DNA of 49,435 nucleotides from an uncultured Opitutaceae bacterium (GTDB taxonomy: Bacteria > Verrucomicrobiota > Verrucomicrobiia > Opitutales > Opitutaceae): positions 1 through 49,435 of the forward strand of contig CAIOZY010000032.1 in assembly GCA_903862935.1 (NCBI GenBank). The letters are read 5' to 3'. The translations under genes and the position numbers were made by a program. Positions 10,737 through 45,841 of this stretch are shown in pieces (positions within the stretch are counted from its first letter, which is position 1; each line of letters opens with the position of its first letter). The notes beneath the pieces are model-generated. The model was not told where the DNA came from and did no database searches. It saw only the letters and a program-made list of their open reading frames with translations.

Positions 10737-12091
10737 AGATCTGCTGCATTGGCGCCGGCTATGTCGGCGGGCCGACGATGGCGATGATCGCCGCCAAGGC
10801 GCCCGACATCGAGGTCACGGTGGTCGACATGAGCTCCTCGCGGATCGCCGCCTGGAACTCGGACACGCTGCCGATCTACGAGCCCGGCCTGGTCGAACTG
10901 GTCCGCCAGGGGCGGGGCCGCAACCTCACCTTCTCAACCGACGTGAAGGGGGCTATACGCGCCGCGGACATCATCTTTGTCGCGGTGAACACACCGACCA
11001 AGACCTACGGGGTCGGGGCCGGGCGCGCCGCCGACCTTCGGTTCATCGAGTCGGTCGCCCGCACGATCGCCGAGGTCTCCGACGGCCGGAAGATCATCGT
11101 CGAGAAGTCCACGATCCCGGTTAAGACCGCCGAGACGATAAAGGACATCCTCGCGGCGAATTCCCGGGGCGGCCGCTTCGAGGTCCTGTCCAATCCGGAG
11201 TTTCTTGCCGAGGGCACGGCAGTCGCCGACCTGCTCTCGCCCGACCGGGTCCTGATCGGCGGCGAGCGCACGCCGGAGGGCCAGGCGGCGATCAAGGCGC
11301 TGGCCGACATCTACGCCCGCTGGGTTCCTCGGGACCGCATCGTCACGACGAACCTGTGGTCATCCGAACTTTCGAAACTGGTCGCCAACGCCTTCCTGGC
11401 GCAGCGCATCTCCTCGATCAACTCGATCTCGGCGCTTTGCGAGGCGACGGGGGCCGACGTCGACGAGGTGGCCCGCGCCGTGGGCCGGGACTCGCGCGTG
11501 GGGCCGAAGTTTTTGAAGGCCTCGGTCGGCTTCGGCGGCTCGTGCTTCCAGAAGGACATCCTGAACCTGGTGTACCTGTGCGAACACTTCGGCCTGGGCG
11601 AGGTTGCGGCCTACTGGGAGAGCGTCGTCAAGATCAACGACTGGCAGAAGGGCCGCTTCGCCCGCGGGATCGTCAAGGCGCTCTTCAACTCGGCCGCCGA
11701 CAAGCAGGTCGCCGTCCTGGGCTTTGCCTTCAAGAAGGACACCAACGACACGCGCGAGTCGGCGGCGATCGCGATCTGCCGGGACCTGCTGGCCGAGCAG
11801 GCCCGGGTCGTCGTGTACGACCCGAAGGTGCCCGCTGAGCAGATCCGCCGGGACGTCCTAAACGGCGGGCCCGACACCCCGCGGCTTGTCGTCGCCTCCG
11901 ACCCCTACGAGGCGGCCCGCGGCGCCCACGCGATCGCGCTCGTCACGGAGTGGGAGGAGTTCAAGGGCCTCGACTACGCCCGGATTCACGCCGGGATGGT
12001 GAAGCCGGCATTCCTCTTCGACGGGCGGAACATCCTCGACCTGGAGCGGATGGCGGCGATCGGCTTCCGGACCTACGGGATCGGCAAGTAG
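10733..12091 (+). CDS. ugd: UDP-glucose 6-dehydrogenase
   Basis: This enzyme oxidises UDP-glucose to UDP-glucuronate with two NAD+ and supplies acidic sugar precursors for polysaccharide and LPS. The 452-residue protein has the N-terminal Rossmann motif GAGYVGGPT, the substrate-loop motif [12 protein letters not shown], and the catalytic Cys271 in [13 protein letters not shown], followed by [16 protein letters not shown] in the C-terminal domain. [12 protein letters not shown] and the overall length resemble the animal-type branch more than the short E. coli Ugd. GTG 10733 overlaps the ftsH stop in GTGA, so it may be translationally coupled to ftsH. It ends directly against the convergent DUF1501 gene. 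Function is secure; the link to the polysaccharide locus 11 kb away is inferred. Confidence 0.95.
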
Positions 12092-13357: not shown

Positions 13358-13373
13358 GGCGGAGGGGCGCTGC

Positions 13374-23685: not shown

Positions 23686-23778
23686 GAACAGACCATGCGG
23701 GGGCGCGGCGCATTAGATGAAATCGAAGCGGGCAAGTCCAGATTCGTCGGGGCATCGGCTCAGGCCGCGGAGACAGGC

Positions 23779-24612
23779 TCACGGGGCTTTGAGCCGGCGC
23801 AGTTCCTCGGCCACGAAACTCTCATATTGGGCCAGGAGTTTGCAGTACCGCAGCCCCGGCGCGCCGTCGAGAAACCCGAGCCGGGCCAGGTACTGATAGA
23901 GAAACCGAAGGGTGCCGCGGCAGGGGAGCCGGTAGCTCAGGCGCTTGAGTTCTCGGCGGCGCCGCAGCGAATCGGAGGACAAAATGGCGGCGAGCGATGC
24001 GCCCGCCCCCGGCTCCCTCCCTGACAAGAGGGCCGCGAGATGGGCCTCGGCCTCCTGGCGAGCGTAGCGGCGGTGCTTGTCCAGCCACTCGGACTCTCCG
24101 CCCGACGAGAGGTCGTGCAGGTACCCCGCCTTGAGCCGGGCCATGCGCATTGAGGAGGCCTCCCGCTGACCGTGCCCCACGTCGATGAATTGGAACTGGG
24201 GCGCCCGCACAAACCGGGCCTGCCAGGCGGGGTAGTCGGTGCAATGGGGTACCCAGCGCCCCTGAAACATCATCCGCGGGGCCGCCCAATAGCCGTCTAG
24301 GTCCTCGCGCGAGACGGCGGCCGAACACTCGGCTGCGAGGTCCGGGGTCATCGCCTCGTCCGCATCCAGGTGGAACACCCAGGGGTTGCGGAAGGGGATC
24401 TGGCTCTGCGCATAGTTGCGCTGGCCCGCGAACGTGTCGAAGGGGCGCGTGAACACCCGGGCCCCGGCGGCCTCGGCGATCTGCCCCGTGCGGTCGGTGG
24501 AGCCCGAGTCGAGGACAACCACATCCGCGCAGCCGGCCACGGACTCGAGGCAACGCGGCAGGTCGCGCTCCTCGTTGAGGGTCAGAATGACGACGGAAAA
24601 GGGCAGGGGCAC
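23779..24612 (-). CDS. Glycosyltransferase family 2, WaaE/KdtX-like
   Basis: The 277-residue GT2 protein begins at GTG 24612 with FSVVILTLNEERDLPRCLES and continues with VVVLDSGSTDRTGQIA and FDTFAGQRNYA, a signature of LPS-core beta-glucosyltransferases of the WaaE type. The DXD-like metal site is HLDADEAMTP. The later half contains the Arg- and Tyr-rich region and two likely amphipathic helices seen in this group. The gene follows the O-antigen ligase-like gene by one base. The open frame extends upstream to 24759 but that part lies in the ligase gene. Core or O-unit glycosylation is the likely role. Confidence 0.88.
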   Translation of the reverse strand: MPLPFSVVILTLNEERDLPRCLESVAGCADVVVLDSGSTDRTGQIAEAAGARVFTRPFDTFAGQRNYAQSQIPFRNPWVFHLDADEAMTPDLAAECSAAVSREDLDGYWAAPRMMFQGRWVPHCTDYPAWQARFVRAPQFQFIDVGHGQREASSMRMARLKAGYLHDLSSGGESEWLDKHRRYARQEAEAHLAALLSGREPGAGASLAAILSSDSLRRRRELKRLSYRLPCRGTLRFLYQYLARLGFLDGAPGLRYCKLLAQYESFVAEELRRLKAP

Positions 24613-24613
24613 G

Positions 24614-26041
24614 TCAGTCCTTTGTCGGGCTGTCGACCGGATGGAGCTGGGCGTAGCGAACCGCGCAGAAATAGCACAGCCACCAGCACAGAACCACGGC
24701 GGTGTTTCCGAACGGAAACTCCATCCACGCGTAAAAAAGAATGATCGAACAGCCTGCAATGAGATACTGGAAGATCGGGCTGGTCAGCTGCGGGCGGCGC
24801 AGTCCCGCCAGGGGCACCAGCCCGCACAAACCGAGCAGGACTGTCCCAATCACCCCGTGCTCCGCCAGGGACTGCAGCCAGTCATTGTGCGCCTGGCTGT
24901 AGAATATCGGAAGGTGGTCGGCGGGGTTCGGCTGCTGGCTGTTGTAGAGGGTGAACACGTACTCGTAGGAGGCCATTCCCCATCCAAACCAGGGGCGGTC
25001 CTTCGCCATGTGCCAGGTGTCGCGGTAGAGGTTAACCCGGCTCCCGATGGTCCCGGCTGCACGCATCGTCGCGACCTGCTGCTGGGTGAGATGGAAGCGG
25101 GCGGTGATCATCTCCCCGGCGATGAGCCAGACGGCCCCGCCGGCCAGCACCATGGCCAGGACTGCCCCGGCGATGGGCAGGACGGGGGAGGTGTGGTCCC
25201 GGCGCCTCTGGCGGACCAGCCGCGCGATCCAGTGGAAGAAGGCCGCGATCAGCAAAGCCGCCATGAGCACGGAGCCGGACCGCGAACCGCTCAGTGGGAC
25301 CGTCGTTGCGATAAGAAACGCGGCGAGGATGGCGGCCAGACCGGGTGTGTGGGCGAAGCCCCTCGGGCTGGGGTGACGGGCGAAGCGCCATGCCACGGCC
25401 AGGCAGACAGCCGCCATCATTACGGCGAAGGCGGACCAGTGGTTGTGGTAGATGAAACTCGAGAAGAAGTACGGCTGCTTGATCTTGACCAGGCCGAAAT
25501 AGAGCCCGGTCGAGCCGGATAGCTTCTGCACCGTCCCAAAGGCAGCCAGGGCGAGTCCATTGAACATGGCCACCATCAGCAGCGTCCGCACAATCGTCCG
25601 GCGCCTGAAGACGAGCGCTATGTTGAAGCAGCTGACATAGAGTGCGTCGTATAGCCAGAGGGCGTCGCGCGACTTGCCCGGGAGAGCGGCGCTCGGCCGC
25701 CATGACGGCACCTCCAGCGGCAGGTACACCGGGTCGGTACCGAAGTGGATCTCCCGGAAGCTCGGGGTGGCGAGGGCTAGGAGAGCGAGTGCGTTGAACA
25801 GCAGGAAGGGCCAGATCGTGACAAGCGGGCGCAGGCTGATCCCGGCCTCCTTGGGCCCAAGAGCTGCCGAAAGAGTGATCAGAACGCCGACCGTTCCCCA
25901 CCACGCAAGAATCGGGCGCAGCCACAGGGCGTTTCCGCCGAAGCCCCAGGTCGTCGCGATGAGCAGAATGCTGACGTGCAGGAGGGTGAGCCGCTCGAGC
26001 AGGCTCGATTCCGCAAGCAGGCGGGACCGGTGTTGGGTCAT
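24614..26041 (-). CDS. O-antigen ligase/Wzy_C family membrane protein
   Basis: A 475-residue polytopic membrane protein with at least ten hydrophobic segments. The central YHNHWSAFAVMMAA region and the large periplasmic loop containing GSRSG, the Arg/His-rich segment before RPWFGWGMASYEYVF, and HNDWLQSLAEHGVIG are typical of the Wzy_C family, which holds WaaL O-antigen ligases and related polymerases. A WaaL-like role would be to move lipid-linked glycan onto lipid A-core in the periplasm. The HNDWLQ sequence is the common conserved His site. WaaL and Wzy cannot be separated by sequence alone; the presence of another Wzy-like gene at 30245 leaves ligase as the more likely role here. Confidence 0.85.
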   Translation of the reverse strand: MTQHRSRLLAESSLLERLTLLHVSILLIATTWGFGGNALWLRPILAWWGTVGVLITLSAALGPKEAGISLRPLVTIWPFLLFNALALLALATPSFREIHFGTDPVYLPLEVPSWRPSAALPGKSRDALWLYDALYVSCFNIALVFRRRTIVRTLLMVAMFNGLALAAFGTVQKLSGSTGLYFGLVKIKQPYFFSSFIYHNHWSAFAVMMAAVCLAVAWRFARHPSPRGFAHTPGLAAILAAFLIATTVPLSGSRSGSVLMAALLIAAFFHWIARLVRQRRRDHTSPVLPIAGAVLAMVLAGGAVWLIAGEMITARFHLTQQQVATMRAAGTIGSRVNLYRDTWHMAKDRPWFGWGMASYEYVFTLYNSQQPNPADHLPIFYSQAHNDWLQSLAEHGVIGTVLLGLCGLVPLAGLRRPQLTSPIFQYLIAGCSIILFYAWMEFPFGNTAVVLCWWLCYFCAVRYAQLHPVDSPTKD

Positions 26042-33261: not shown

Positions 33262-34491
33262 TCATCGGGAGCGGACCGCCGTAGCCACGGCATCGAGCAA
33301 GCGGGGCGCCTCGTGCTCCCAGCAGTAGAATTGTTCGGCCAGGCGCCGGGCCGCAGCCTGGCGGGCTCCCAGGGCTGCTTCGTCTGAAAGCAGCCGATCG
33401 ACCGCGGAGGCCGCCATGGAGCTGTCGCTAAAGTCCGTGATCTGGCCCACGGCAGGATCGCGCGCGATCACTTCCCGCTGGCCTTTGGTGTCGCTGGCAA
33501 GGACTACGAGGCCGGCGTTCAGGTACTGGAGGATCTTGTTTGTGATCGTCAGGTCCCGGCTTGGGATGTCGCTGCGCTCCAGGGCCAGGCCAATGTCGTG
33601 CCTGGCGATCAGGCCCGGCAGCTCCTCGGGTGAAACCGGCTTCAAGAACCCGAGGTCCTGGCGGCGCCCGATCGGGGCCTGCGCACGGAGCTCGTCGGCC
33701 ATGGAGCCCTGCGGGTCGCCGAGCAAGACGAGCCGGCTCGGGATCCGGGTGCGGCCCCAGGCCTCCACAAAGGACTCGAGCCCGCGCCCGGGCCCGAGGG
33801 TCTGCGAAAACCAGAAGATGGAGGGCGGCTTTCCCGGCGGGCCGGCATGAGGATCGGGCTGGAGCGGAAATGAGTTCGTGAGCACGACGGGCCTGGACCC
33901 GCCGTTGCGCTCCTGCAGGGCGCTTGCGAGGGCCTCGGACGTCGTGCTGGTGTAGCCAGCTCTCTGCAGTAGCGAACGCTCGACTCGGCGCAGGATCTTA
34001 AGGGGGCGGTGGGCGCGGTTGGCCGGGAGCAGGTCCTCGGAGTGCCAGTCCTCAAAGTCGGCCGCGACTCTCCGGCCCTGGGCGAGCAGGCGGACCCCCA
34101 CCCAGTGTGGGACCTCGTTGTGGACAATTGTGAGGTCAGCCGGCACCGCTCTGGCCCGGCTGAGGAGCGCGGCGGCTGGGCCCAGGGCGTGGATCGTGGG
34201 CAATCCCAGGCGAACCCCGAGGCCGGCGGCAAGCCACCGAACGGCCCGGCGGGTGAGGAGCCGGCCGGGGCCCGCTGAAAAGCCCGGGAGCAGATCGACA
34301 GCCTCACGCCGAAAGGAGGCGCCCCTCATCAGCTCGATGTCGTTTTGCTCTCCAGCGGCGTGGTTCCTCACCATGAGGACCGTGACGGCGTAGCCGGCGC
34401 GGCCCAGGGTCTGGGCCTCCTTCCAAACCCGCGGATTGCGGGAAAGCTGCCCGTTCGTGACGATGAGGATCGTGGCGGGGCCGGTCTTCAT
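33262..34491 (-). CDS. Glycosyltransferase family 4-like protein
   Basis: A 409-residue GT-B enzyme beginning at ATG 34491, which overlaps the upstream GT2 stop in ATGA. It opens ATILIVTNGQLSRNPRVWKEAQTL, typical of GT4-like proteins in LPS loci. Later come ADLTIVHNEVPHWVGVRL and ADFEDWHSEDLL. The donor domain includes SIFWFSQTLGPGRGLESFVEA, HDIGLALERSDIPSRDLTITNKILQYLNAG and LASDTKGQREV. The canonical E-x7-E is replaced by a diverged segment, as in related proteins. Specificity is unknown. Confidence 0.86.
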   Translation of the reverse strand: MKTGPATILIVTNGQLSRNPRVWKEAQTLGRAGYAVTVLMVRNHAAGEQNDIELMRGASFRREAVDLLPGFSAGPGRLLTRRAVRWLAAGLGVRLGLPTIHALGPAAALLSRARAVPADLTIVHNEVPHWVGVRLLAQGRRVAADFEDWHSEDLLPANRAHRPLKILRRVERSLLQRAGYTSTTSEALASALQERNGGSRPVVLTNSFPLQPDPHAGPPGKPPSIFWFSQTLGPGRGLESFVEAWGRTRIPSRLVLLGDPQGSMADELRAQAPIGRRQDLGFLKPVSPEELPGLIARHDIGLALERSDIPSRDLTITNKILQYLNAGLVVLASDTKGQREVIARDPAVGQITDFSDSSMAASAVDRLLSDEAALGARQAAARRLAEQFYCWEHEAPRLLDAVATAVRSR

Positions 34492-35537
34492 GGTGGCGGG
34501 GGGGGCGGGGCCTGAATGACCTTGCTCAGCGCTGTCGCCTTCGCACGGGGCCGACCGAAGGCCGCCGACTGGCCGACGAGCCAATTCCACGTCTCGGCGC
34601 AGTCGGTGCGGAAGCGGAGGGCCCGGACAACGCGAACGGGTTGGCGGGCTATCTCAAGGACTGCCCGGAGCCAGTCGGCCGGATGGGCGTGCCGCAGCAG
34701 GCGCGGCTGCCGCACGGCCAAAGCCAGTGAAAAGAATACCATGGTGTCGTGCGGACGAAGCACCCGGCGGGCCGCCCAAAGCCTCTTCAACTCGGCAGGA
34801 CCGATTTCCACAGAATCGAAGAATGAGGCGGCTACCAGGAGTTTCGACTGGATCCAGTCAAGGGGGTCCACACTGCGAGCGGTCCGGGCGGTCTGAGCGA
34901 AATTGGCGAGCGGCCTGCAGATCAGGACCAGAGGCCCCAGGGCCGCCCGCTCCCGCAGCGGCTCGATGATATCGAGGGGCGTCGCCAGAGGAACCTCGGG
35001 CGTTCGGAAGCGCCCGGGGCGAAACACCATGGCCCCCTGAGAGTGCAGGGCGTCAAAGGACTGTAGGCACTCGGGCCAGGAGAAGACCACGGTCTCCGGG
35101 GCGCCCGGGCCCACGGTCCATATTGAACAATTCAGGTCCGTCCAAGCGCCGTCGGGCTCCTCCCGCCACCGCCGCATGTTAGCCCAAGCCATGGCCGCGC
35201 CGGGGTTCCGCTCAAGGACGGCTACGGCCGTCTGCAAAAACTCCGGGTCCCACCAGTTGTCATCCTCCAGGAGGCTCGCGAAGGGCTCCGGACCGCCCCG
35301 GTACATGTGATTGAAGACCCCCACCGCGCCCCAGTTTTCAGGGTGCTGGTTGTAGACGAACCGGGAATCGCCCCGTGCGAGTTCGTCGAGGAGTGCGCGG
35401 GGCTGGTCGTCTGAGGGGTCGTCGTTGTGCACCTCGCACACCCATTGGGTGTGGGTCTGCGCCAGCAGGCTTCTCACGGCGCGCCGTAGAAGCGCCGGAC
35501 GCCGATAGGTCGTGAGGAACACCCTAACTGAGGCCAT
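34488..35537 (-). CDS. Glycosyltransferase family 2 (GT-A fold)
   Basis: A 349-residue GT2 protein with VRVFLTTYRRPALLRRAVRSLLAQT at the N terminus and the DXD-like pair ASLLEDDNWWDPEF. The substrate-binding first half is typical; the C-terminal half is variable. It ends in QAPPPPPP from a C-rich run at the overlap with the next gene. ATG 35537 lies six bases after the preceding stop. It probably adds a sugar to the glycan repeat; the donor is not predictable. Confidence 0.86.
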   Translation of the reverse strand: MASVRVFLTTYRRPALLRRAVRSLLAQTHTQWVCEVHNDDPSDDQPRALLDELARGDSRFVYNQHPENWGAVGVFNHMYRGGPEPFASLLEDDNWWDPEFLQTAVAVLERNPGAAMAWANMRRWREEPDGAWTDLNCSIWTVGPGAPETVVFSWPECLQSFDALHSQGAMVFRPGRFRTPEVPLATPLDIIEPLRERAALGPLVLICRPLANFAQTARTARSVDPLDWIQSKLLVAASFFDSVEIGPAELKRLWAARRVLRPHDTMVFFSLALAVRQPRLLRHAHPADWLRAVLEIARQPVRVVRALRFRTDCAETWNWLVGQSAAFGRPRAKATALSKVIQAPPPPPP

Positions 35538-35543
35538 GGTGGT

Positions 35544-36494
35544 TTAACATCGTCCGAGCAGGCGAAACAGGCGCTTTGCCGCCCGCCAGCCGATCAGGCT
35601 GGCCGCCATCTGGAAGCGCCCTGTGCCGGGCGGTGGCAGGGGAGAGCCCCCGAGGGCGGTGTAGCGGGACTCCGCCTCGTCAGCCACGCGCGGCGCCTGG
35701 GGATAGGATTCATAGGCGAGGGTCCTCCAGGCGTTCGCGACCGCCACCCGGGTGCGGGGATCGTCGGACCCCCGGGCGAGGATCCTTCCACAGTTGAGCT
35801 CAGTAGAGAGCGCGAGCGAACGGATCGACTTGGCATCCTTCCGGCGGCTCAGGCTTCCGCTCAGCCCGGAGCGGTAGTACACCCGGGCGCCGGGGCAGAA
35901 GAGGATGCCGCGGGCTGCGAGGACAACCCGGCAGAAGTACTCGCCGTCGTCGTTTAGCGTCAGGCGCTCATCCCAGGGTCCCGCCTTGTCGAGAAGGGGC
36001 CGCGGGCAGAGCCACGCGGCCGGCTGCATCATCCAGCCGTACTCGTAATGGGACAGGAGAAATTCCATGCCGGATAGGTCCCTCCAGACTGGCTCCGGGT
36101 TGAACCGGGCCTCAGCCGGGTCGGTGTGGAACCGGGACCACTCGCAGGAGGCGATGAAGCCGCTTTCGGCGCCGTCGAGGCGGGCCATCTGCACGGCGAT
36201 CTTCTCCGGGCCAAGCAGGTCGTCGGCATCGAGGAACTGAATGAACTCGCCGTGCGCCAGCCGCAGGCCGTGGTTGCGCGCGGCGCTTGCACCCTGGTTC
36301 GGCTGGCTCACCACCTTGACCCCACGCTGTGAAAACGAGCCGGCAACCGCGACAGACTCGTCCGTGGAGCCGTCATCGACGACGATGACCTCCACGCGGG
36401 GCCAGGTCTGCGCCAGTGCCGAGGACACGGCGGCTCCAAGCCAGGGGGCGGCGTTGTAGCACGGGATGATGATGCTGACCAGGGGCGAGCTCAC
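35544..36494 (-). CDS. Glycosyltransferase family 2 (GT-A fold)
   Basis: A 316-residue inverting GT2 protein. The N terminus VSIIIPCYNAAPWLGAAVSSAL leads to VEVIVVDDGSTDESVAVA and the DXD motif in EFIQFLDADDLLGPEK, all hallmarks. GTG 36494 starts it. A long C-terminal region (about 200-316) with GLSGSLSRRKDAKSIRSLALSTE is like that of other GT2 proteins in Verrucomicrobia loci. Order within the run suggests glycan-repeat synthesis. Confidence 0.9.
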   Translation of the reverse strand: MSSPLVSIIIPCYNAAPWLGAAVSSALAQTWPRVEVIVVDDGSTDESVAVAGSFSQRGVKVVSQPNQGASAARNHGLRLAHGEFIQFLDADDLLGPEKIAVQMARLDGAESGFIASCEWSRFHTDPAEARFNPEPVWRDLSGMEFLLSHYEYGWMMQPAAWLCPRPLLDKAGPWDERLTLNDDGEYFCRVVLAARGILFCPGARVYYRSGLSGSLSRRKDAKSIRSLALSTELNCGRILARGSDDPRTRVAVANAWRTLAYESYPQAPRVADEAESRYTALGGSPLPPPGTGRFQMAASLIGWRAAKRLFRLLGRC

Positions 36495-36546
36495 GATGAC
36501 ACCTCAGCGTTCGTCGGCTCAGCCGCTGGAGGATGGGCCATCAAGG

Positions 36547-37578
36547 TCATGGCGGGGGCAGCTGTTGCATGATCCGGGCGAAGGCGGCATCATCCAGCGT
36601 CCGGCACTTCGAATAGGGACCGTTCTGGAGCAGGCGGAAAAACCCGCCGGCTGCGACCGGACCCGCGGCTCGGGACACCGCTTGAAACAGCGAGCCGCCA
36701 AGGGGCCGTGGGTCTCGGCTGCGGTTCAAACCCCGCCAGACGGAAAGCAGTCGCCGGTCAAAATCCCGGGAAAAACCCCGCGGCAGGCGGCGCCAGGAGA
36801 CGAAGGCCTTCTCCGCGACGCGCTGGCGCGCGGGAGCCTCGGCACTGCCGGCCGGGCACCCCCGCGCAAAGGCCTCCATGACGGCCAACGAGGCCGCCGC
36901 AAGGCGCTCCCAGCAGCCGGTGAGGCGTCCGGTCGAGTGGACGCCGATGATGGAGCGGGGGCCCGGAACCTTGATGACCTTTGCAGGACGGGTCGCGGCA
37001 TTGTGGTAGAACCAGATCTCCGCAACGCAGTTATAATTGGCCGCTGGCGGGAAGAGCGGCTCGGCGACAATCCGCTGCAGGTATTCGGAGCGAAAGACCG
37101 GGGAATGGGGCGCGGGCTGGACCTGAATGTAGAATTCTGCCGGATCCTGGGTCGCTGCGGAAGGGGTGTCATTGTCGATCCGCAACGAATCGTAGTCCCC
37201 GTCCAGCACGCACCGCGCCGAGTCGGTATAGCTCACATCGGCGTGCTCCCGGTCCATGGCGGCGACCTGGCTGCGCAGCTTGTCCGGGCTGATGAGGTCA
37301 TCCGAATCGAGGAAGATGACATAGCGGCCATGGATCAGCCGGAGGCCCGCCAGCCGCGCGAAGAGCAGGCCGCTGTTCTGCTGGCGGCAGACTACATCCG
37401 GAGCATAGCCCAGTCTCGCGATGTCGTCCATGGCGGGAGGGGTTGATCCGTCATCGACCAGCACAGTCTCAACAGTAAGTCCCTCGGATGCGCGACGGAC
37501 GCTCTCAAGGGTGTAGCGTATCAGCTCCCCTCGATTGAATACCGGGATTACGACGGAAATGTCAGGTTGGCGGGGCAT
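36547..37578 (-). CDS. Glycosyltransferase family 2 (GT-A fold)
   Basis: A 343-residue GT2 protein, with ISVVIPVFNRGELIRYTLESV at the start, TVLVDDGSTPPAMDDI, and the DXD motif YVIFLDSDDLISPDK. The C-terminal 150 residues contain an Arg- and Ala-rich region without recognisable motifs. ATG 37578 follows the previous gene by 60 bases. It probably contributes one sugar to the polysaccharide; substrate unknown. Confidence 0.9.
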   Translation of the reverse strand: MPRQPDISVVIPVFNRGELIRYTLESVRRASEGLTVETVLVDDGSTPPAMDDIARLGYAPDVVCRQQNSGLLFARLAGLRLIHGRYVIFLDSDDLISPDKLRSQVAAMDREHADVSYTDSARCVLDGDYDSLRIDNDTPSAATQDPAEFYIQVQPAPHSPVFRSEYLQRIVAEPLFPPAANYNCVAEIWFYHNAATRPAKVIKVPGPRSIIGVHSTGRLTGCWERLAAASLAVMEAFARGCPAGSAEAPARQRVAEKAFVSWRRLPRGFSRDFDRRLLSVWRGLNRSRDPRPLGGSLFQAVSRAAGPVAAGGFFRLLQNGPYSKCRTLDDAAFARIMQQLPPP

Positions 37579-37638
37579 GGGGCATTTCTTCGGGTGAGGG
37601 TGAGCGCCGGGCCGAATCCCGGGCTTTGCGATGGCCTG

Positions 37639-38610
37639 TCATGAATCCGAGGCAACGGCCTTCGATCGTGCCAGGTTCCAGATATCGCCGCGTCCCTCGA
37701 AATTTCCGCAGGCCCCCTGCCAGCGAATCCACTCGGCCGGCCCGCGCCAGGCCCGCATCCGAAGCCAAGCCCGGGCCTGTCTCAGCCAGACCGAGCGAGG
37801 CGGGCTGGCAGGCCAAAGGACAATTCCGTGCAGGGCGAGGACGCGGACCCACGACCGGGCGATCGCCCGGTTCAGGGCGCCCAGGTAGTCCCGCTCAATC
37901 CTGCGGCGGGGGATCAGGTGGGTGAGCTGGAGGTCCGGCAGGTAGGCCACCTCGTGGCCCGCCTCGAGCGCCACCATGACCAAGTCATTGTCGCCGCCCG
38001 ATACCAGGGCGCTGCCTGAGCGGTCGAGGCCCTTCCGGTTAGAGTCTGCGTTCACTGCCGAAGCGTAGGAATCGGCTGCGCTCCGCCGGATGGCCATGCC
38101 GGCCCCGAGGGGCGCGCAGACGGGGTAGCTTCGGCCCTCCGGGGAGCTCCAGGCAGCCCGCAGGAGTTTCGGGCCCAGATCTCGCAGGGCGAGCAGGCCA
38201 TCGAACTCCCTCGCCCACGGCGGAGGGCAGGACTCAAACTCAGGAAGGGACCTGCCTCCGATGGCGCCGAGCCGGGGCTCTGCCGAGAAGGCCCGAAGCA
38301 CGGTTTCCAGGTAGTTTGGGGCGAGGACGTTGTCATCGTCCACGAGCACGCAAACCGGTGCCCGCGATTCGGCGAAGCCGCGGCAACGCGCCGCCGTGAG
38401 GCCCACCTTCGGCTCCCGCACAATTCTCACAGTGCTGGGACCGATCTGGGCACAGCGGGCCTGTGATGGAAACTGAGCGGACGCATTGTCGACAAGGATC
38501 GTCTCCCAAAGGCCGGGGGAAAGGCTCTGGACCCGCAGGGCCGCGAGGGTTCGGCCCAGGCGCCCCTCGTCGGGGTTGTGGGCAGGGATGATTACGGTCA
38601 GTTCGGGCAT
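37639..38610 (-). CDS. Glycosyltransferase family 2 (GT-A fold)
   Basis: A 323-residue GT2 protein from ATG 38610: MPELTVIIPAHNPDEGRLGRT, then WETILVDNASAQFPSQA and the DXD-like APVCVLVDDDNVLAPNYLET. LGAGMAIRRSA and a following GGDNDLVMVALEAGHEVAYLP are conserved in the branch that transfers hexoses or rhamnose. The frame is open a few codons upstream to 38634, but MPEL is the better start. A 240-base gap separates it from wzt upstream, the largest within the locus. Confidence 0.9.
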   Translation of the reverse strand: MPELTVIIPAHNPDEGRLGRTLAALRVQSLSPGLWETILVDNASAQFPSQARCAQIGPSTVRIVREPKVGLTAARCRGFAESRAPVCVLVDDDNVLAPNYLETVLRAFSAEPRLGAIGGRSLPEFESCPPPWAREFDGLLALRDLGPKLLRAAWSSPEGRSYPVCAPLGAGMAIRRSAADSYASAVNADSNRKGLDRSGSALVSGGDNDLVMVALEAGHEVAYLPDLQLTHLIPRRRIERDYLGALNRAIARSWVRVLALHGIVLWPASPPRSVWLRQARAWLRMRAWRGPAEWIRWQGACGNFEGRGDIWNLARSKAVASDS

Positions 38611-38850
38611 CACAACTTCAGGGTCCCTGAACAAGCCGTGCCGGGCCGGCCGGGCAAAAACTGCAGGGCCGGGCGAACAGGGGTGGTCCCGTTCACGTCT
38701 CGGCAGGTAATCCTACGCTTCGAGCTCAGAGTATGGGGTGCGGGAGACAGCGGCTGGGGATATCCGCATTTCCGGGAGGGGTAGGGCGCGTGCGGCTAGA
38801 TTGGGGAGACGAATCTCCGGCAGCGGGGCGGCACGCCCGCCTGCCGGGAA
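38611..38850 (-). other. 240-base gap between wzt and the first GT2 gene; nothing coding recognised
   Basis: No frame here is supported as coding. The gap separates the exporter genes from the run of glycosyltransferase genes and could hold a secondary promoter. No clear box pair or strong hairpin was assigned. Confidence 0.4.
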
Positions 38851-40110
38851 TCATCCCGCCCCCGGAGGGATGGGTTCACTCGTAACCCCGGAATAGACGG
38901 TCTTACCCCAATTGTGCTGCCACTGACTGATCGTGCCCGAGGTGCTGCGGGCGGCCAAAACCTCGAACTGGATCGCCTTGGCCACGACATCGTACTCCTT
39001 CAAGCCGGTGAGTGGAGTCCCAGTTCCAATCGAAACGTCGCAGTGATAGTGCCCGGGCGCCAGCCGGGGCTGCGGGAGCTGGACCCGGAGGTCAACGGTC
39101 TCCCCATTGCGGAGCCGTGCCGTATCCGCGCTAAATCCGCTCCCGACGGGAGCGCCCTCGTTGGAGATTACGGTAAGGCTGGTGCGCAGCTGGGTCAGAT
39201 CCGCATTGGAGCGCACTCTAACGATGAAGGACAGGGGCTCGTCGGGCCCGAACTGGGGTGTCTTCTTCTCAAAACGCAGCCTCAGAATCCGCGCCGTCTG
39301 CCCCATGCTGTGCTCGCGAGGGCGCTCGGAGACGTCGAAACTGGTGCTGGGCATGGACTGGTCGGAAACGAAGTACTCCTCGAGGGCCCGCTCTGTCGGG
39401 CCCGCGTACGCGAGCCGGCCCGACTGGAGCAACAGGCAGCGCTCCGTCAGCTGGGACACCGCAGCCAGGTTGTGGCTCACGAAGAACACAGTCCGGCCCT
39501 TCTGGTGGGAGACATCCTGGATCTTCCCGATGCACTTGGCCTGGAAGGCCGCGTCTCCGACGGCCAGGACCTCGTCCACGATCAGGATCTCGGGCTCGAG
39601 GTGCGCGGCGACGGCAAAGGCCAGGCGGACGTACATGCCGCTGCTGTAGTGCTTAACCGGCGTATCGATGAAGCGCTCGACCTCCGAAAATGCGACGATC
39701 TCGTCGAACTTCCTGCGGACCTCGCGCTTGGTCATCCCCAGGATGGCGCCGTTCAGGTAGACATTCTCCCTGCCGCTAAGCTCCGGGTGAAACCCCGTCC
39801 CGACCTCAAGCAGCGATGCGACGCGGCCGCGGAGGATGGCCGTTCCGCTTGTGGGCTCGGTGATGCGGGAAAGGATCTTGAGCAGGGTGGACTTTCCGGC
39901 TCCGTTTCGCCCGATGATGCCGATGACCTCCCCGGCCTGAACATCGAAGGAAATGTCGCGCAGCGCCCAGAACTCGTTCGGGTTGGCCGCCGGGGCGCCC
40001 CTGAGCCGGGAGAGGAGCCGCTGGAACTCCACCCGCAGGGAGGTGGCTCCAATCGCGCCGAGCAGATAGCGCTTCGAAAGGCCTTTAACCTCAATGATGG
40101 GCCGGCTCAT
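38851..40110 (-). CDS. wzt: Polysaccharide ABC exporter ATP-binding protein with carbohydrate-binding C-terminal domain (Wzt)
   Basis: Wzt is the ATPase of ABC-type O-antigen exporters; it pairs with Wzm. The 419-residue protein has Walker A GIIGRNGAGKS (about 64-74), the Wzt-type signature HYSSGMYVRLAFAVA, and Walker B ILIVDEVLAVGD. After about residue 250 comes a 170-residue extension (LRLRFEKKTPQFGPDEPL, then the APGHYHCDVSI region), resembling the Wzt C-terminal beta-sandwich that binds the finished glycan in E. coli O8/O9a-type systems. ATG 40110 overlaps wzm in ATGA. The extension suggests that export depends on recognising a chain-end or repeat structure. Confidence 0.93.
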   Translation of the reverse strand: MSRPIIEVKGLSKRYLLGAIGATSLRVEFQRLLSRLRGAPAANPNEFWALRDISFDVQAGEVIGIIGRNGAGKSTLLKILSRITEPTSGTAILRGRVASLLEVGTGFHPELSGRENVYLNGAILGMTKREVRRKFDEIVAFSEVERFIDTPVKHYSSGMYVRLAFAVAAHLEPEILIVDEVLAVGDAAFQAKCIGKIQDVSHQKGRTVFFVSHNLAAVSQLTERCLLLQSGRLAYAGPTERALEEYFVSDQSMPSTSFDVSERPREHSMGQTARILRLRFEKKTPQFGPDEPLSFIVRVRSNADLTQLRTSLTVISNEGAPVGSGFSADTARLRNGETVDLRVQLPQPRLAPGHYHCDVSIGTGTPLTGLKEYDVVAKAIQFEVLAARSTSGTISQWQHNWGKTVYSGVTSEPIPPGAG

Positions 40111-40967
40111 ACGATGTCGACGAAGGTCTTTTCGACCCGCTCGAAGATAAGCAGGCCGGTGAACAGGGCGAAGACCGTGGCGGCGATTGAAACGGCGAAC
40201 AGGTGGAAACTGATGTAACCGTTGCCGAGGAGCATGACCCGGAAGCACTCGACGGGAACGGTGACAGGATTAATCGCGGCCACCAACCGCCACTGGGACG
40301 GCACCTGCGTCAGGGGGTAAATCACCGGGGTCACGTACATCCACAGCTGGATGATGAATCCGGACAGCACCGCGAAGTCTCGGAACTTCGCCGTAAGGGC
40401 CGCGAGCCAGAGCCCGACCCCGAGGCTCAGGCAGGCCAGCTGCACCAGCAGCAGCGGCAGCAGGAGGGCGGACCAGCCCAGTCCGCACGTGGCCGCGGGG
40501 TGGCCCAGCCGGTAGAGCACCAGGAAGACCAGGAAGGTGACGAACTGGATCAGGAACGAGATGAAGTTCGAGAACACCCCGGCCAGGGGGACCACCAGGC
40601 GGGGGAAGTAGACTTTGCCAAACAGGTTGGCATTCGCGACGAGGGCGCTGGAGGTGGATGTGAACGTCTGGGAGAAGTAGTTCCAGGCCAGAAGGCCGCA
40701 CAGGTAGAAGAGGGTCGGCGGCAAGTCGTTGGTCGAAAGGGCGGCAACGTGGCTGAAGATCACCGTGAAGATGACGGTCGTCACGAGGGGTTGGGCGATA
40801 TGCCAGATCGGGCCGAGGGCCGTCTGCTTGTAGCGGGCGACGAAGTCCCGCCAGACAAGAAGCCACAGGAGGTCCCGGTACGCGTAGATGTCCCTCCAGG
40901 CGACCAGATGGAATCCCCGGGTTGCCTGGATGACAACCTCCGGGGAGGATGGGACTTTGGTGCTCAT
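40107..40967 (-). CDS. wzm: Polysaccharide ABC exporter permease (Wzm)
   Basis: A 286-residue ABC-2-type inner-membrane permease. It has an amphipathic N-terminal region (WRDIYAYRDLLWLLVWRDFVARYKQT), the hallmark LGPIWHIAQPLV, and six hydrophobic segments, ending EKTFVDIV. These match O-antigen and teichoic-acid exporters (Wzm/TagG). With Wzt it should move undecaprenyl-linked glycan across the inner membrane. I chose ATG 40967; the frame runs on to 41024, but the extra residues are basic and not family-like. Confidence 0.93.
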   Translation of the reverse strand: MSTKVPSSPEVVIQATRGFHLVAWRDIYAYRDLLWLLVWRDFVARYKQTALGPIWHIAQPLVTTVIFTVIFSHVAALSTNDLPPTLFYLCGLLAWNYFSQTFTSTSSALVANANLFGKVYFPRLVVPLAGVFSNFISFLIQFVTFLVFLVLYRLGHPAATCGLGWSALLLPLLLVQLACLSLGVGLWLAALTAKFRDFAVLSGFIIQLWMYVTPVIYPLTQVPSQWRLVAAINPVTVPVECFRVMLLGNGYISFHLFAVSIAATVFALFTGLLIFERVEKTFVDIV

Positions 40968-41126
40968 GGATGCATGCCGGCGGCGGCGGAGAGCGACGCC
41001 TGGCGTCGTGTCTGCGAACAGCAATAGCGACCAAGCTTTTTTCTTCCAGTCATTTGTGGCTTGGGGCGGCCCACGGGGTGTTGGCAGACAGGCGGAAAAC
41101 AGGTGGTCATTGGCCGGGGGGTGGGA

Positions 41127-42086
41127 TCACAGAGGCAGCGCCCGGGCCGCCTCCGGAACGGCCCTGCGCCAGCCGTACCGGAAGTACCACCGCTTCGAAT
41201 TGTCCACGTAGTGGTGCATGACCGCTTTCGGGAAGAGGACCTCAGCCTCGGCGGGCTTCGTGACGTAGTCGGACCCGGGGAGGACGGCTGCGGCGGGCTC
41301 CCGCGCCACCAGCATCGCAACCAAGGCCTGCTCCAGGTAGTAGTTGGTCTTTTCCCGGGCGATCAGCTCTGCGGACCAGGATTCGAGCAGCTCCCAGTCC
41401 AAGGCCTCGCTGCGCAGACCGCACAGGCCGACATTCACCAGGCTGGGGATCGGCGCCCCCGCAAGCCGTTCCAACAGCTTGCGGCTGTAGCCGTATGATT
41501 CCTGGCAGTCGACGGCGTGGAGCGGCCGGTCCGGCCGGGAGAACCACTCCAGGAGGGCATCGGGTCTCCGGAAAAAGAGCAGGTCGGAATCCAGGACGAG
41601 CTTCCAACCCTGGCGCCCCAGATGCACGTCGGTGAGTTTCCGGATGTTGGGATAATTCGTCCACCGCTCGCGCAGGGTCGGAAACCGCGAGGCCGGGAGG
41701 AATTGCTCAAGCCGGCTGCGGATCTCCTCCGCGGGAGTGATCCTGACCCCGGGCCCCAGGAGCGATAGGGCCCGGGCGAGCTCCGGGTCGACGGTGCCGT
41801 CGTCGTAAAGCTCCGCGTCGACGGTGCGCCGGGCCGCGCGGGACAGGGAGTGCAGGCAGAAGACGGTCTGGTACCAGAAGCGCCTTCCGGTCATGACGTG
41901 GACGGTGGCCCGAGCCTGATCGGGGAAAAGGGGAAGGGCGCCAAGTCGGGAGGCAGCCGCCTCCATCTGGCGCCGCTGGACCTCGGTGCGCCACTCGGCG
42001 ATGGGGCCGCCGTTGCGCAGCGAGTTTCTGCACAGGCCGACCGGCCTGTGGTAGAGGTACAAGAGAAGCTTGCCGGGGGTGATCAC
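41127..42086 (-). CDS. Putative GT-A-type glycosyltransferase of unrecognised family
   Basis: A 319-residue cytoplasmic-looking protein. VHVMTGRRFWYQTVFCLHSLSRA and a DXD motif in KLVLDSDLLFFRRPDALLE (about residues 163-181) are like GT8/GT-A enzymes, and LVNVGLCGLRSEAL with NYYLEQALVAML fits the second half of such proteins. I cannot place it in a named family. It starts at GTG 42086, 13 bases after the AsnB-GT4 fusion, and sits before wzm, so a role in glycan synthesis is likely. Alternatives include a modifying transferase acting on the lipid-linked chain. Confidence 0.65.
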   Translation of the reverse strand: MITPGKLLLYLYHRPVGLCRNSLRNGGPIAEWRTEVQRRQMEAAASRLGALPLFPDQARATVHVMTGRRFWYQTVFCLHSLSRAARRTVDAELYDDGTVDPELARALSLLGPGVRITPAEEIRSRLEQFLPASRFPTLRERWTNYPNIRKLTDVHLGRQGWKLVLDSDLLFFRRPDALLEWFSRPDRPLHAVDCQESYGYSRKLLERLAGAPIPSLVNVGLCGLRSEALDWELLESWSAELIAREKTNYYLEQALVAMLVAREPAAAVLPGSDYVTKPAEAEVLFPKAVMHHYVDNSKRWYFRYGWRRAVPEAARALPL

Positions 42087-42098
42087 GGAGGGGCGCGT

Positions 42099-45000
42099 CT
42101 AGTCTGCCGCGGGTGGGGCCTCAAGTTGCGCTGCAAGGCGGTCCCGGAACGGGCCATAGGAGAAGGCTTGGGGCCGCGCCAGAATCGGCCCCTGCTGCCA
42201 GTCCCGCTGGAGCGCTTCAACACAGCCCGCGCTGATTGAGGCGATGTCACCGAACTCGACCAGCATGCCGGTCTCAGGAGTAATCACCTCGGGGATCCCG
42301 CCCGCGCGCGCCCCCAGGCAGGGCCGGCCTCGGGCCATGGCTTCCAGAAAGACGATGCCGAAGCCCTCCTTGCTGCTTGGCAGGGCGAAGAGACGGCAGG
42401 AGGCGATTTCCTTGGCGAGCTGCGTGTCGCTCACATATCCGAGGAACACGACGCCGCCGCCGAGGAGGCCGGCCTTGCGCGCCAGCGCCTCGAGCCGGGG
42501 CAGGTCATCGCCCCGTCCGACCACGCGCAGCTGGGCCCCGGGCACCTTTTCCCGGATCGCTGGCATCGCGGCGATCAGGTCGCTGATGCCCTTGTAGCGC
42601 TCGGAGCGCATGAGCCGGGCCGCCGTGAGAATTACCGGCGGGCACTCGGCGGGGGGGACGCCCGCTGAGATCGAGAAACTGGTGTCGATCGCGTTGGGAA
42701 GCACGATCGCGCGGCCGGGCGGCAGCGGGCAGCGCCTGAGGAGCTCACGGCGGGTGTACTCGCTCACGCAGAAGATCCGGCTGGCGCCGCGGAGGGCGAC
42801 GCGCTCGAGCAGGCCCAGGGGGCGCCACACTTCGATCCCGTGCGCCACCACGTAATAACGCAGGCCTGGATTCTGCAGCCGGGCGAGCCACGCGACGGGG
42901 CTCTGGGCGACGTGCCCGCAGATGATCCGGTCGGCGTTGTGGCCCATCCGCAGGGCGGCCAGCACAAACCTGAGCTTCCGGCGGTTGCAGACGCACCAAC
43001 TGTGCAGCGGCGCGCCCGTGTAGTGCCGCACGGCGGTCGAGTCCAGCTCCGGATCAAGCAGCGCAAGAAGGCTGACCCCCTGTCCGTTTCTGGCGCCGAT
43101 CTCGGTCAGGGCCTTGAGGTAAAGCCTGAGAATTCGCTGGATTCCCCCCGTGTTGGAGAAAATCTCGGGCACCATGAGGAGCGTGTGGCTCCTGCCCCCG
43201 CTTGCGACGTGTTGGCTGAGCAACTCAAGCGGCTTCTCATTCGTCTTGTGGGGCGGCGAGGCAGGGGTGCGCCGGTTGATAAAGGCGATGAGCATCGCCA
43301 GGCTCCAGACCCGGGACCACTCCCGGGTGTCCTGGGAGCGCAAAAAGCCCTGCCAGGTGGCCTGCACCGCCTCGGGTCGAAAGAACGAGCTCCTCCCGAT
43401 GCTCGCCTCGGAGAAGGTCTCGTCAAGGAAGGGCCGGAGCTCCCGGCGCATCCAAAGGGCGATGGGCAGGGTGAACCCTTGCTTGCGCCGGTTCTGCAGG
43501 GCTGGGGGCAGGATGTCGCGCAACGCGTCGGCAAGCGCCTTCTTGGGCCGGCGGGGGGTGAAGCGGTAGGCCAAAGGCTGGCGCCACAGCCACTCGATCA
43601 GCGGCCGGTCAACGAAGGGAACGCGCAGCTCGAGCGAATGCCGCATGCTCATGACGTCGCTGTCCCTCAGCAGCAGATCCGCCATGTATGTGCGCAGCTC
43701 CCAGGCGCTGGAGATTTCGGGAAGCCGGGCATGGGAGAGCTCCTTTCTGAGCTCATCCAATTCGGGATGGAACGGGGAGGTGTTGCCGAGCGCCTCGAGG
43801 GTCCCCTGGGCCAGCAGCCCCCTCCGAGAGATCTCCGAGAACACCCTGCGGTCCAGCGCCGCGAGCTCGTGGGGGTCGTGGGCGTAATTGAGACTGTCGG
43901 CGAGCTTCCTCTCTCTCGTGCTGCCGTGTTCGAGCCGGCGAATGATCGGGTTGCGCACACCCTGGGGGATCAGGCGCCACCACGGCAAGAGAGCGGCCAG
44001 CCGAGGCACGTTCTTGAACGAGGGATAACCCCCGAAGATCTCGTCTCCACCCAGACCCGACAGGGCGACCGTAAGGCCGCCCAGCCGGGCGGCGCGGCTC
44101 ACGTGGTAGGTGTTGAGGCCGTCCCCGGTGGGGTGGTCGCAGGCGGCGATGAAATCCTCCAGCGACCGGGCTACCTCCGCGCCGGTCAGGATCGTGGTGT
44201 GGTGCTCGATGCCGTAGTAGCGCGCGACCGCGGCGGCCTCGTCGGCCTCGGAATATCCGGGTTCGTCGAAGCCGATCGCAAACGTCTTCAGGCTGGCGCC
44301 CGCAGTCCGGGCCATCAGCCCCACTATGGCGCTGGAGTCGAGGCCGCCGGACAGGAACGCGCCCACGGGCACGTCAGCCACGGCGTAGGCGCCGATCACA
44401 TCCTCGAGCCTGCGCCGCAGCTCCCACTGGAACTCCTCCTGTGAGGAACAGACGTTGGGCTCGGGTTCGATGCCGGCGAAGCTCCATCTGCGTTGGATGT
44501 CGAGCCGCCCGTCGCGGTAGGTTGCGGCCTCGCCCGGCCGCAAGCTGTAGATGCCGCGGTAGATCGTCTTGGGTGCCGGAACGCAGAACCAGGCAAGGAA
44601 GTCCCCCACGGAGACCGGGTCGATCTCCGGGCGGATACCCCCGGCCAGCAGCGCATTGAGTTCGGAGGCGAAAACAAGGCGGCTGTGGTCGTGGCGGTAG
44701 TACAGGGGCTTGATCCCGAACGGATCCCTGGCGAGGTGCAGGGTCTGCTCGCGACTGTCCCAGACGGCGAACGAGAACATGCCCCGCAGCCGGCCTACGC
44801 AGGCGATACCCCACTGGACGAAGGAGGCAAGGAGCACCTCGGTGTCGCAATGGGTGCGAAAGTCCCATCGGCCGGCGAGTTCCTTGCGCAGGTCCGCGTG
44901 GTTTACGATCGAGCCGTTGAAGACCAGCGTAAACCGTCCGTCGGGTGTCTGGATAGGCTGGTGCCCGTGAGCCGGATCGTAGATGGCCAGGCGCCGCATC

Positions 45001-45140
45001 CCGAGCGTGGCTGGGCCTTGGGATTGCGCACCGCTGTCATCGGGCCCCCGGTGCCGCATGGCCTCGCACATGCGCTCCACGCAGTCCAGGCGGACTGCGG
45101 CGCTGCTTTGGGGATCAATAACTCCAGCTATGCCACACAC
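42099..45140 (-). CDS. Fusion of glutamine-hydrolysing asparagine synthetase and GT4 glycosyltransferase
   Basis: One open frame of 1013 residues. Residues 2-210 are an Ntn glutaminase domain; the start GTG 45140 makes Cys2 of (M)CGIAGV the nucleophile, as required after Met removal, which is why I prefer it over the open frame to 45170. RHRGPDDSG and LARDPFGIKPLYY follow. Residues about 235-620 are the synthetase domain with the ATP site SGGLDSS (264-270) and SGLGGDEIFGGYP. A 30-residue linker (about 622-650) leads to a complete GT4 domain (about 652-1013) starting HTLLMVPEIFSNTGGIQRI and containing SSKEGFGIVFLEAMARGRP. AsnB-like proteins in polysaccharide loci may amidate sugar acids; the fusion suggests coupled amidation and transfer, which is inference. 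A single missed indel near the junction could also have joined two adjacent genes. Confidence 0.87.
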   Translation of the reverse strand: MCGIAGVIDPQSSAAVRLDCVERMCEAMRHRGPDDSGAQSQGPATLGMRRLAIYDPAHGHQPIQTPDGRFTLVFNGSIVNHADLRKELAGRWDFRTHCDTEVLLASFVQWGIACVGRLRGMFSFAVWDSREQTLHLARDPFGIKPLYYRHDHSRLVFASELNALLAGGIRPEIDPVSVGDFLAWFCVPAPKTIYRGIYSLRPGEAATYRDGRLDIQRRWSFAGIEPEPNVCSSQEEFQWELRRRLEDVIGAYAVADVPVGAFLSGGLDSSAIVGLMARTAGASLKTFAIGFDEPGYSEADEAAAVARYYGIEHHTTILTGAEVARSLEDFIAACDHPTGDGLNTYHVSRAARLGGLTVALSGLGGDEIFGGYPSFKNVPRLAALLPWWRLIPQGVRNPIIRRLEHGSTRERKLADSLNYAHDPHELAALDRRVFSEISRRGLLAQGTLEALGNTSPFHPELDELRKELSHARLPEISSAWELRTYMADLLLRDSDVMSMRHSLELRVPFVDRPLIEWLWRQPLAYRFTPRRPKKALADALRDILPPALQNRRKQGFTLPIALWMRRELRPFLDETFSEASIGRSSFFRPEAVQATWQGFLRSQDTREWSRVWSLAMLIAFINRRTPASPPHKTNEKPLELLSQHVASGGRSHTLLMVPEIFSNTGGIQRILRLYLKALTEIGARNGQGVSLLALLDPELDSTAVRHYTGAPLHSWCVCNRRKLRFVLAALRMGHNADRIICGHVAQSPVAWLARLQNPGLRYYVVAHGIEVWRPLGLLERVALRGASRIFCVSEYTRRELLRRCPLPPGRAIVLPNAIDTSFSISAGVPPAECPPVILTAARLMRSERYKGISDLIAAMPAIREKVPGAQLRVVGRGDDLPRLEALARKAGLLGGGVVFLGYVSDTQLAKEIASCRLFALPSSKEGFGIVFLEAMARGRPCLGARAGGIPEVITPETGMLVEFGDIASISAGCVEALQRDWQQGPILARPQAFSYGPFRDRLAAQLEAPPAAD

Positions 45141-45301: not shown

Positions 45302-45841
45302 TCACGAACAGATCGACCGTGCGATTTCCGCTGCCTTGTCGGGAGAGAACAGGGCGGTGACGACCGCCAGGCCGAAATCGAGCGCTGTGCCGGCCCCTCG
45401 GGAGGTGATGAGTCGTCCATCAATGACCACGCGCTCCTCCGAGCGAATGTGGGCAAGTTCCCCGGCAACCGAGAAGTGGGCCGTGTAGCGCTTTCCGGTA
45501 AGAAGCCCTGCGTCGTGGAGCACCGCGGGGGCGGCGCAGATCGCCGCAATCCACAGCCCGGCGGCGTGCTGGCGGATAAGCAGGGTCTTGACGGTCGGGT
45601 CAGAGCGCAGGTGCTTCACGCCCGGGCCCCCGGGCAGCAGCACGCAGTCGAACGATCTTTCGGCGACGGCGGCCAGAGTCGTGTCGGCATGCACGGTCAG
45701 CCCCGTGCGGCCTGTCGCGTGGATTCCCTCGCCGAGGGAGGCAATCGTCACCTCGGCGCCGGCCCGCCGAAGCAGGTCGACCGGGGTCACCATCTCGATC
45801 TCTTCAAATTGCTCGGCTAGGATGACAAGAACAGTGGGCAT
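45302..45841 (-). CDS. DJ-1/PfpI family protein
   Basis: A 179-residue protein of the DJ-1/PfpI/ThiJ family. The nucleophile elbow is AAICAAPAVLHDAG with Cys102, and a conserved Glu sits in EQFEEIEMVTPVDLLRRAG, the sequence environment of DJ-1/YajL proteins rather than of class I PfpI proteases. Family roles include glyoxalase III activity and redox protection; both have been disputed for individual members. ATG 45841 diverges from ybaB. It is an isolated gene downstream of which the polysaccharide locus starts. Confidence 0.92.
   Translation of the reverse strand: MPTVLVILAEQFEEIEMVTPVDLLRRAGAEVTIASLGEGIHATGRTGLTVHADTTLAAVAERSFDCVLLPGGPGVKHLRSDPTVKTLLIRQHAAGLWIAAICAAPAVLHDAGLLTGKRYTAHFSVAGELAHIRSEERVVIDGRLITSRGAGTALDFGLAVVTALFSPDKAAEIARSICS

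Follow-up and report, generated by a model that had tools for sequence, protein, structure and literature searches.

The stretch of DNA analysed here (the window) comprises 49,435 nucleotides of contig CAIOZY010000032.1 from an uncultured Opitutaceae bacterium (assembly GCA_903862935.1), and the gene under study is a fused asnB-GT4 gene at 42099-45140 on its minus strand. This interval forms one unbroken frame of 1013 codons plus a stop, which encodes an AsnB-type amidotransferase half followed by a family 4 glycosyltransferase (GT4) half; the frame read on the plus strand of the same interval contains stops. An earlier note made from the sequence alone had proposed an AsnB-GT4 fusion in one 1013-residue frame without giving a strand. 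That proposal is confirmed, and the joined frame recurs in the family to which the window belongs. Translation from the GTG at 45140 yields a protein beginning MCGIAG, with the cysteine nucleophile at residue 2 (codon 45135-45137). A second in-frame candidate start, the TTG at 45170, lies upstream and is unlikely to be used since it would move the cysteine inward. By eye, the sequence upstream of the GTG holds no clear Shine-Dalgarno run. GC content is 0.65-0.71 across the whole fused gene.

All features of the fused gene lie on the minus strand. The glutaminase domain, of the class II glutamine amidotransferase type, spans residues 1-232 (44445-45140, its end being approximate) and carries Pfam matches to GATase_7 (residues 49-166, 146 bits) and GATase_6. 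The Asn_synthase domain, which is ATP-dependent and amide-forming, follows at residues 240-619 (43284-44423; 273.5 bits). The GT4 domain, recognised by Pfam, its E-x7-E motif and Foldseek, occupies residues 653-1013 (42102-43184) and matches Glyco_transf_4 (residues 665-821, 49 bits) and Glyco_trans_1_4 (residues 835-978, 105 bits); all of these matches exceed the Pfam cut-offs. Between the aligned halves lies a linker of 27 residues (626-652; 43185-43265). In an AlphaFold2 model built from 25 fused sequences (mean pLDDT 86.3, pTM 0.64), the predicted protein is two confidently modelled domains joined by a low-confidence linker, in which residues 641-649 have a pLDDT below 50.

Both halves keep their motifs, as the earlier note had stated. 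The N-terminal half retains the catalytic elements Cys2, R31-G-P-D, N75-G, D99, E101, SGG-DS and D366-E367, and its GATase_7 and Asn_synthase domains with an SGGxDS PP-loop place it in the class II amidotransferase/AsnB superfamily. Cys2 is invariant in 25 aligned fused proteins, and the S, G, G, D and S of the PP-loop SGGLDSS (residues 264-270; 44331-44351) are each kept in 85 of 85 rows of the family alignment. The GT4 assignment is based on the Pfam domains together with the E-x7-E motif (E925 to E933; 42342-42368), in which both glutamates are likewise present in 85 of 85 rows; no NCBIfam glycosyltransferase model exceeded its cut-off among the best 25 of 31. In Foldseek comparisons of the model, the AsnB half matches E. 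coli AsnB and TsnB9 across roughly 630-645 columns. The GT half matches PimB', BshA and a lipopolysaccharide (LPS) glycosyltransferase over about 375-415 columns, with no close solved relative.

We searched for orthologues of each half in a genus sample of 13 genomes and a family sample of 252 genomes, both including the window's own, and counted a pair as joined in the family when the AsnB half lay within an open frame of at least 900 aa. The joined frame occurs in 26 of the 252 family genomes. For a direct reading of the loci, larger stretches were taken for 100 of the 126 GT-positive genomes (G228 contributing two loci), leaving 26 out, and a Synoicihabitans metagenome-assembled genome (MAG) locus brought the set to 102 loci. 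Here 26 loci are joined; G107 is joined as well, in a frame ended by the contig edge. One genome counted as joined, G032, aligns to the GT half over its first ~180 residues only (about half) within a 915-aa frame, and its GT half may be truncated. Named records supplied nine loci, of which six (L008, L009, L010, L011, L012 and L014) are joined and three (L013, L015 and L016) split; the six are family genomes already in the sample and are counted once.

The 27 linkers that we read, from rows selected for being in frame, are 23-130 residues long and fall into 16 different lengths, all in frame. Their commonest residues include Pro (22.6%), Ala (17.3%) and Arg (11.5%), and by eye no sequence is shared among them, which rules out a conserved linker. 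The 30-residue linker of the earlier note is correctly placed, but its sequence is not conserved among relatives; the same note had suggested looking in other genomes for both the joined frame and the linker, of which only the frame is shared. In base shuffles, the mean chance of a single linker being open in such GC-rich DNA is 0.70. Because each linker would often be open by chance, the evidence for the fusion is its recurrence across relatives and no single linker. Recurrence also decides whether the junction lost a stop or a single base through an assembly or sequencing error. Such an error might be suspected since much of the evidence comes from draft genomes and many relatives are split; however, 26 joined genomes, 16 linker lengths in 27 proteins and a joined sister row (G009) rule out an artefact for the group and leave it virtually no credence for the window.

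No fusion was seen outside the family in the samples covered, which were drawn from its order, its phylum and plasmid records. In order-level and phylum-level samples, both of which contain the window's own family, the GT half was matched at an E value of 1e-50 or better in 40 of 372 and 21 of 387 genomes, respectively, and all of these belong to that family. Among plasmid records, 275 matched at E 1e-40, and none of them covers 80% of the fused protein in one place.

Split forms of the pair occur close to the window. In seven members of the same genus (G001, G002, G003, G004, G005, G007 and G012), a stop separates the halves. The earlier note had held that the fusion would be refuted if close relatives carried separate genes divided by a stop codon in the junction region; these seven show exactly that arrangement, yet the fusion is not refuted, with 26 family genomes joined. 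Instead, the split genus relatives show that the fusion either arose from two adjacent genes or alternates with such a pair. Among 63 fully readable split junctions, 43 have an exact 4-base overlap of stop and start (34 ATGA and 9 GTGA), a classic arrangement for translational coupling. The remaining 20 fail the strict overlap test and are mostly gapped, three of the gaps exceeding 800 bases. One genome with 6% contamination, G228, has both a joined and a split copy of the pair, on contigs C523 and C83 (L162 and L078).

The two halves occur together far more often than apart. Of the 252 genomes, 126 have the GT orthologue and 122 the AsnB orthologue; 115 have both, 11 have the GT alone, 7 the AsnB alone and 119 neither (Fisher p 1e-48; the genomes are related and kinship was not corrected for, so this p is too small). 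The AsnB-only cases are partly fragments: the match in G029 touches the first base of its contig, and those in G051 and G184 are partial. Some GT-only cases look real, for example G186 (L079) and G013 (L132), where the GT gene sits in its usual place beside recR/ybaB and wzm/wzt clusters and no AsnB lies within 8 kb upstream. In this family, both parts usually occur together, joined in some genomes and as overlapping or neighbouring genes in most.

We built trees from 85 rows (17 of the 102 loci were omitted for missing or partial halves) using quick IQ-TREE runs that provide SH-aLRT support only. In the concatenated tree, one 28-row clade (support 94) unites 24 of 25 fused rows with four split ones, and the joined G009 is sister to the window (support 96, starred). 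Of these split rows, G168 has an ATGA overlap, and G229 and G075 have GTGA overlaps that by eye lie upstream of the aligned GT start, so that their halves seem to be truly separate genes; in G026 an in-frame TAG between the halves may be decay or error. The tree of the GT half places all 25 fused rows inside a 30-row clade, with 4 changes between the fused and split states. G037 is joined, and its AsnB half is nearest to split-clade proteins (73%) while its GT half is nearest to fused-clade ones (71%), which suggests that one half was replaced or that this is an independent fusion.

One alternative is a loose tether, in which the two domains serve unrelated steps of one pathway and the fusion is a near-neutral loss of the stop between neighbours. 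Linkers that vary freely in sequence and length fit this alternative, as do the split rows nested in the fused clade (the GTGA overlaps of G229 and G075 and the in-frame TAG of G026) and G037, whose GT half belongs with the fused clade and whose AsnB half belongs with the split one. On the other hand, the strong co-occurrence and the frequent exact overlap indicate a partnership of precisely these two genes, and the genes further downstream fall in clusters found in few loci. We consider the loose tether the most serious of the competing explanations, although an unlikely one.

The AsnB half departs from a true asparagine synthetase at its substrate pocket. Aligned with E. coli AsnB (1ct9), Glu348 is replaced by Leu363 in the SGLGGDE motif (residues 361-367; 44040-44060), with Leu in 84 of 85 rows and Ile in one. 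The TTIR stretch of the 1ct9 chain is replaced by PTGD in PTGDGLNT (residues 337-344; 44109-44132), with Asp340 in place of Arg324 (Asp in 84 of 85 rows, one gap). In E. coli AsnB, we take Glu348 and the TTIR stretch to serve aspartate binding and catalysis. The "complete asparagine synthetase" of the earlier note thus holds for the amidotransferase/synthetase layout, which is complete, but not for the pocket. The pocket signature of the window protein reads HPTGDGLNTY/SGLGGDE; L031 has a signature of the same type (DGVNTY/SGLGGDE), whereas three other AsnB-type proteins of the genus (L025, L026 and L042) have EPMGDSS with GGDGGDE or GGDAGDE. Asn_synthase matches also occur in long frames of 1115 aa (G078:C18), 921 aa (G107:C358) and 859 aa (G077:C169), possibly representing more fusions.

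These replacements bear on whether a housekeeping asparagine synthetase was accidentally fused to a glycosyltransferase. The fused gene is the sole Asn_synthase-domain match of its genome, the other AsnB-like match being only a glutaminase one (residues 57-165). None of the 13 genus genomes has an AsnA match, the window's genome does have an AsnS gene, and the protein exceeds the cut-off of the broad NCBIfam asparagine synthase model TIGR01536 (413.3 vs 267.1). All of this would fit a housekeeping role. However, the model for asparagine synthetase B proper (PRK09431) stays far below its cut-off (260.7 vs 499), the E. coli AsnB pocket residues are replaced, and 84 of 102 loci have exporter genes downstream of the pair. 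Moreover, 66 of 252 family genomes have no Asn_synthase match (E 1e-5), as do 38 of the 165 that are of good quality. G006, a member of the window's genus, is among those without a match, and this enzyme class is thus not required for asparagine in the family; these genomes plausibly make asparagine otherwise, by a tRNA-dependent route. GatB, which would allow tRNA-dependent asparagine synthesis, is present in the window's genome. We regard an accidental housekeeping fusion as improbable.

The surroundings of the fused gene point to surface polysaccharide. On the minus strand, a DJ-1/PfpI family gene (45302-45841) lies upstream of the fusion, and downstream follow a gene for a 319-aa protein without a Pfam or NCBIfam match (41127-42086), a Wzm-like ABC-2 permease (40107-41024; PF01061), an ABC ATPase with a Wzt_C domain (38851-40248, the true start probably lying inside this open frame) and four GT2-type genes plus one GT4-like gene (33262-38634). 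This order bears out in substance the earlier description of the fusion as the head of a polysaccharide locus, which is probably of the ABC-exporter-dependent O-antigen type. A UDP-sugar 6-dehydrogenase gene, a source of UDP-uronic acid and the sole such match of the genome, lies at 10733-12091 on the plus strand (TIGR03026, over cut-off).

This arrangement is widespread among the 102 loci, many of which end too close to a contig edge to reveal all neighbours. A gene of the Wzm/Wzt clusters lies downstream on the same strand in 84 loci. The gene clusters that lie upstream by median position are DJ-1 (58 loci), an NAD-dependent epimerase-like gene (48), recR (46) and ybaB (38), and clusters centred further downstream occur mostly in at most 15 loci. 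Pfam searches with eight cluster members from two loci returned RecR, YbaB, Epimerase, DJ-1, two ABC2_membrane and two ABC_tran domains. The pair is thus a constant neighbour of the exporter, suggesting that it takes part in a conserved stage of chain assembly.

Several further features of the window were seen. The 319-aa protein contains a DSDLLF stretch that by eye resembles the DxD of GT-A enzymes, and its cluster occurs in 8 of 102 loci. Genes for a Wzy_C ligase/polymerase-type protein and a Bac_transf initiating transferase (22327-26041) lie in one region with the Wzm/Wzt exporter (38851-41024), all on the minus strand, so two export routes may share it. On the minus strand, a 641-aa frame at 3216-5141 combines a lipid A acyltransferase domain (residues 7-287) with a GT9 heptosyltransferase domain (residues 485-596) as a second fusion-like gene, and DUF1501 and DUF1800 genes are adjacent at 12092-14894.

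A role for the AsnB half is suggested by glycan-locus relatives described in PMC7468200, PMC6025236 and PMC3684757, all cited from excerpts. WbpS and WbqG are said to belong to the TIGR03108 family, deletion of PGN_1234 abolished the uronamide, an activity for which WbqG, too, is cited as necessary (PMC7468200, citing King et al. 2010 on WbpS/WbqG). In H. pullorum, a wbpS knock-out changed the mobility of a glycoprotein whose glycan contains a HexNAc uronamide (PMC6025236). A wbpS gene flanked by two group-1 glycosyltransferase genes is described in PMC3684757. As far as these excerpts go, the reports make a sugar carboxylate the likeliest acceptor. Our preferred reading, to which we give a probability of roughly 55%, is an amidotransferase that works like WbpS, converting a sugar carboxylate to an amide, and is tied to a GT4 enzyme handling that sugar in a surface-polysaccharide locus. 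In its favour stand the recurrent joined frame, the co-occurrence and frequent overlap of the two genes, their place beside the exporter, the replaced E. coli pocket residues, TIGR03108 as best NCBIfam model after the general TIGR01536, and the many family genomes that lack an Asn_synthase match altogether.

Under this reading, the N-terminal half would hydrolyse glutamine at Cys2 and the ammonia would pass internally to the synthetase site, where ATP would activate a carboxylate and a primary amide would be formed. The acceptor would most likely be the carboxylate of a uronic-acid sugar and not free aspartate. The GT4 half would presumably transfer this sugar or attach the following one to it, with donor, acceptor and order of steps as putative assignments. 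Ancestrally, the two were probably neighbouring genes with a 4-base stop/start overlap and coupled translation; in part of the family, the stop would have been lost or the frame shifted, giving a single polypeptide whose flexible linker may fix a 1:1 stoichiometry and proximity. Fusion would thereby couple amidation of a sugar acid with glycosyl transfer, and might allow channelling.

A number of observations weigh against this reading. TIGR03108 (eps_aminotran_1) is the second-best NCBIfam model after TIGR01536 and scores 407.2 against a cut-off of 816.9, which leaves the protein outside the curated family and limits the claim to "works like" WbpS, not "is" WbpS. The AsnB-half tree misfits a single fusion origin, since it needs 10 changes where the GT-half tree needs 4; it has many weak branches, and it groups the window with two split rows in a set of three (support 93). 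Joining is not essential, as split and joined forms coexist among near relatives, and the GT can apparently work without AsnB since 11 genomes carry it alone. A UDP-sugar dehydrogenase match is near-universal in the family (238 of 252 genomes) and its presence does not discriminate; the window's own gene lies ~30 kb from the fusion. Finally, three of four plasmid AsnB proteins encoded beside glycosyltransferase genes (see below) do not have the window's pocket signature.

The acceptor could also be an amino acid or a peptide-like substituent of the glycan instead of a sugar carboxylate. The AsnB superfamily uses many acceptors, with TsnB9, beta-lactam synthetase and carbapenam synthetase among the structural neighbours, and among the window genes scanned no dedicated uronic-acid gene adjoins the fusion. 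In the excerpted PMC7468200, however, the glycan-locus relatives PGN_1234 and WbqG act on uronic acids, and we find a peptide-like acceptor doubtful, though less so than a housekeeping enzyme. Slightly ahead of it, and still well short of probable, is a variant of the WbpS-like reading in which amidation takes place on the growing lipid-linked glycan and not on a free nucleotide sugar. The GT4 half would add a uronic acid that the tethered AsnB half then amidates in position, or the reverse, as a conserved early step before Wzm/Wzt export. If true, a single polypeptide would link glycosyl transfer to an amidotransferase acting at the level of the glycan.

The fusion and the frequent overlap point to the amidotransferase's partner among the several glycosyltransferases of the locus, which is often unclear otherwise. 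The natural fused and split versions offer a direct way to ask whether the sugar is amidated while still bound to its nucleotide or once it is part of the growing chain. They also provide, within one bacterial family, a set of naturally occurring gene fusions and apparent splits, in which the AsnB half of G037 looks replaced or independently fused.

Among known systems, the window protein resembles WbpS, WbqG and PGN_1234 in being an AsnB-superfamily enzyme of a surface-glycan locus, a uronamide-forming role having been reported or proposed for WbpS relatives (excerpts of PMC7468200, PMC6025236 and PMC3684757). Unlike them, it is fused to a GT4 domain and reaches half the TIGR03108 cut-off, the likeness being drawn through this profile model. 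Two genus paralogues that have TIGR03108 as their best model, also under its cut-off, carry EPMGDSS and GGDGGDE or GGDAGDE, in contrast to the HPTGDGLNTY/SGLGGDE of the window. With E. coli asparagine synthetase B (1ct9), the window protein shares the domain layout and the glutaminase and PP-loop regions; it differs in the absent Glu348 and TTIR stretch, the asnB-proper model under its cut-off and the additional GT4 domain. The GT half has the fold and the E-x7-E motif of PimB' (3oka), BshA (2jjm/3mbo) and LPS galactosyltransferase (5n7z), but at 17-24% identity only, and its donor and acceptor are not assignable from them.

The gene neighbourhood has parallels on plasmids. In the four regions that we chose from the 275 matching records (Gloeothece, Isosphaeraceae, Haloarcula and Caballeronia), asnB adjoins a glycosyltransferase gene in 4 of 4, and the Gloeothece AsnB (DGVNSY/SGTGGDE) has the PTGDG-N/SG-GGDE signature of the window. 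Unlike in the window, asnB and the glycosyltransferase gene are separate there, and the glycosyltransferases are only distantly alike (blastp 26-34% over part of their length). Among the matches listed in PMC, titles and abstract starts, which mostly leave subscription papers outside, contain no description of an AsnB-GT4 fusion or of such a locus. AsnB beside glycosyltransferase genes in polysaccharide loci is known already from public annotations and the excerpted PMC3684757; what is new is their fusion.

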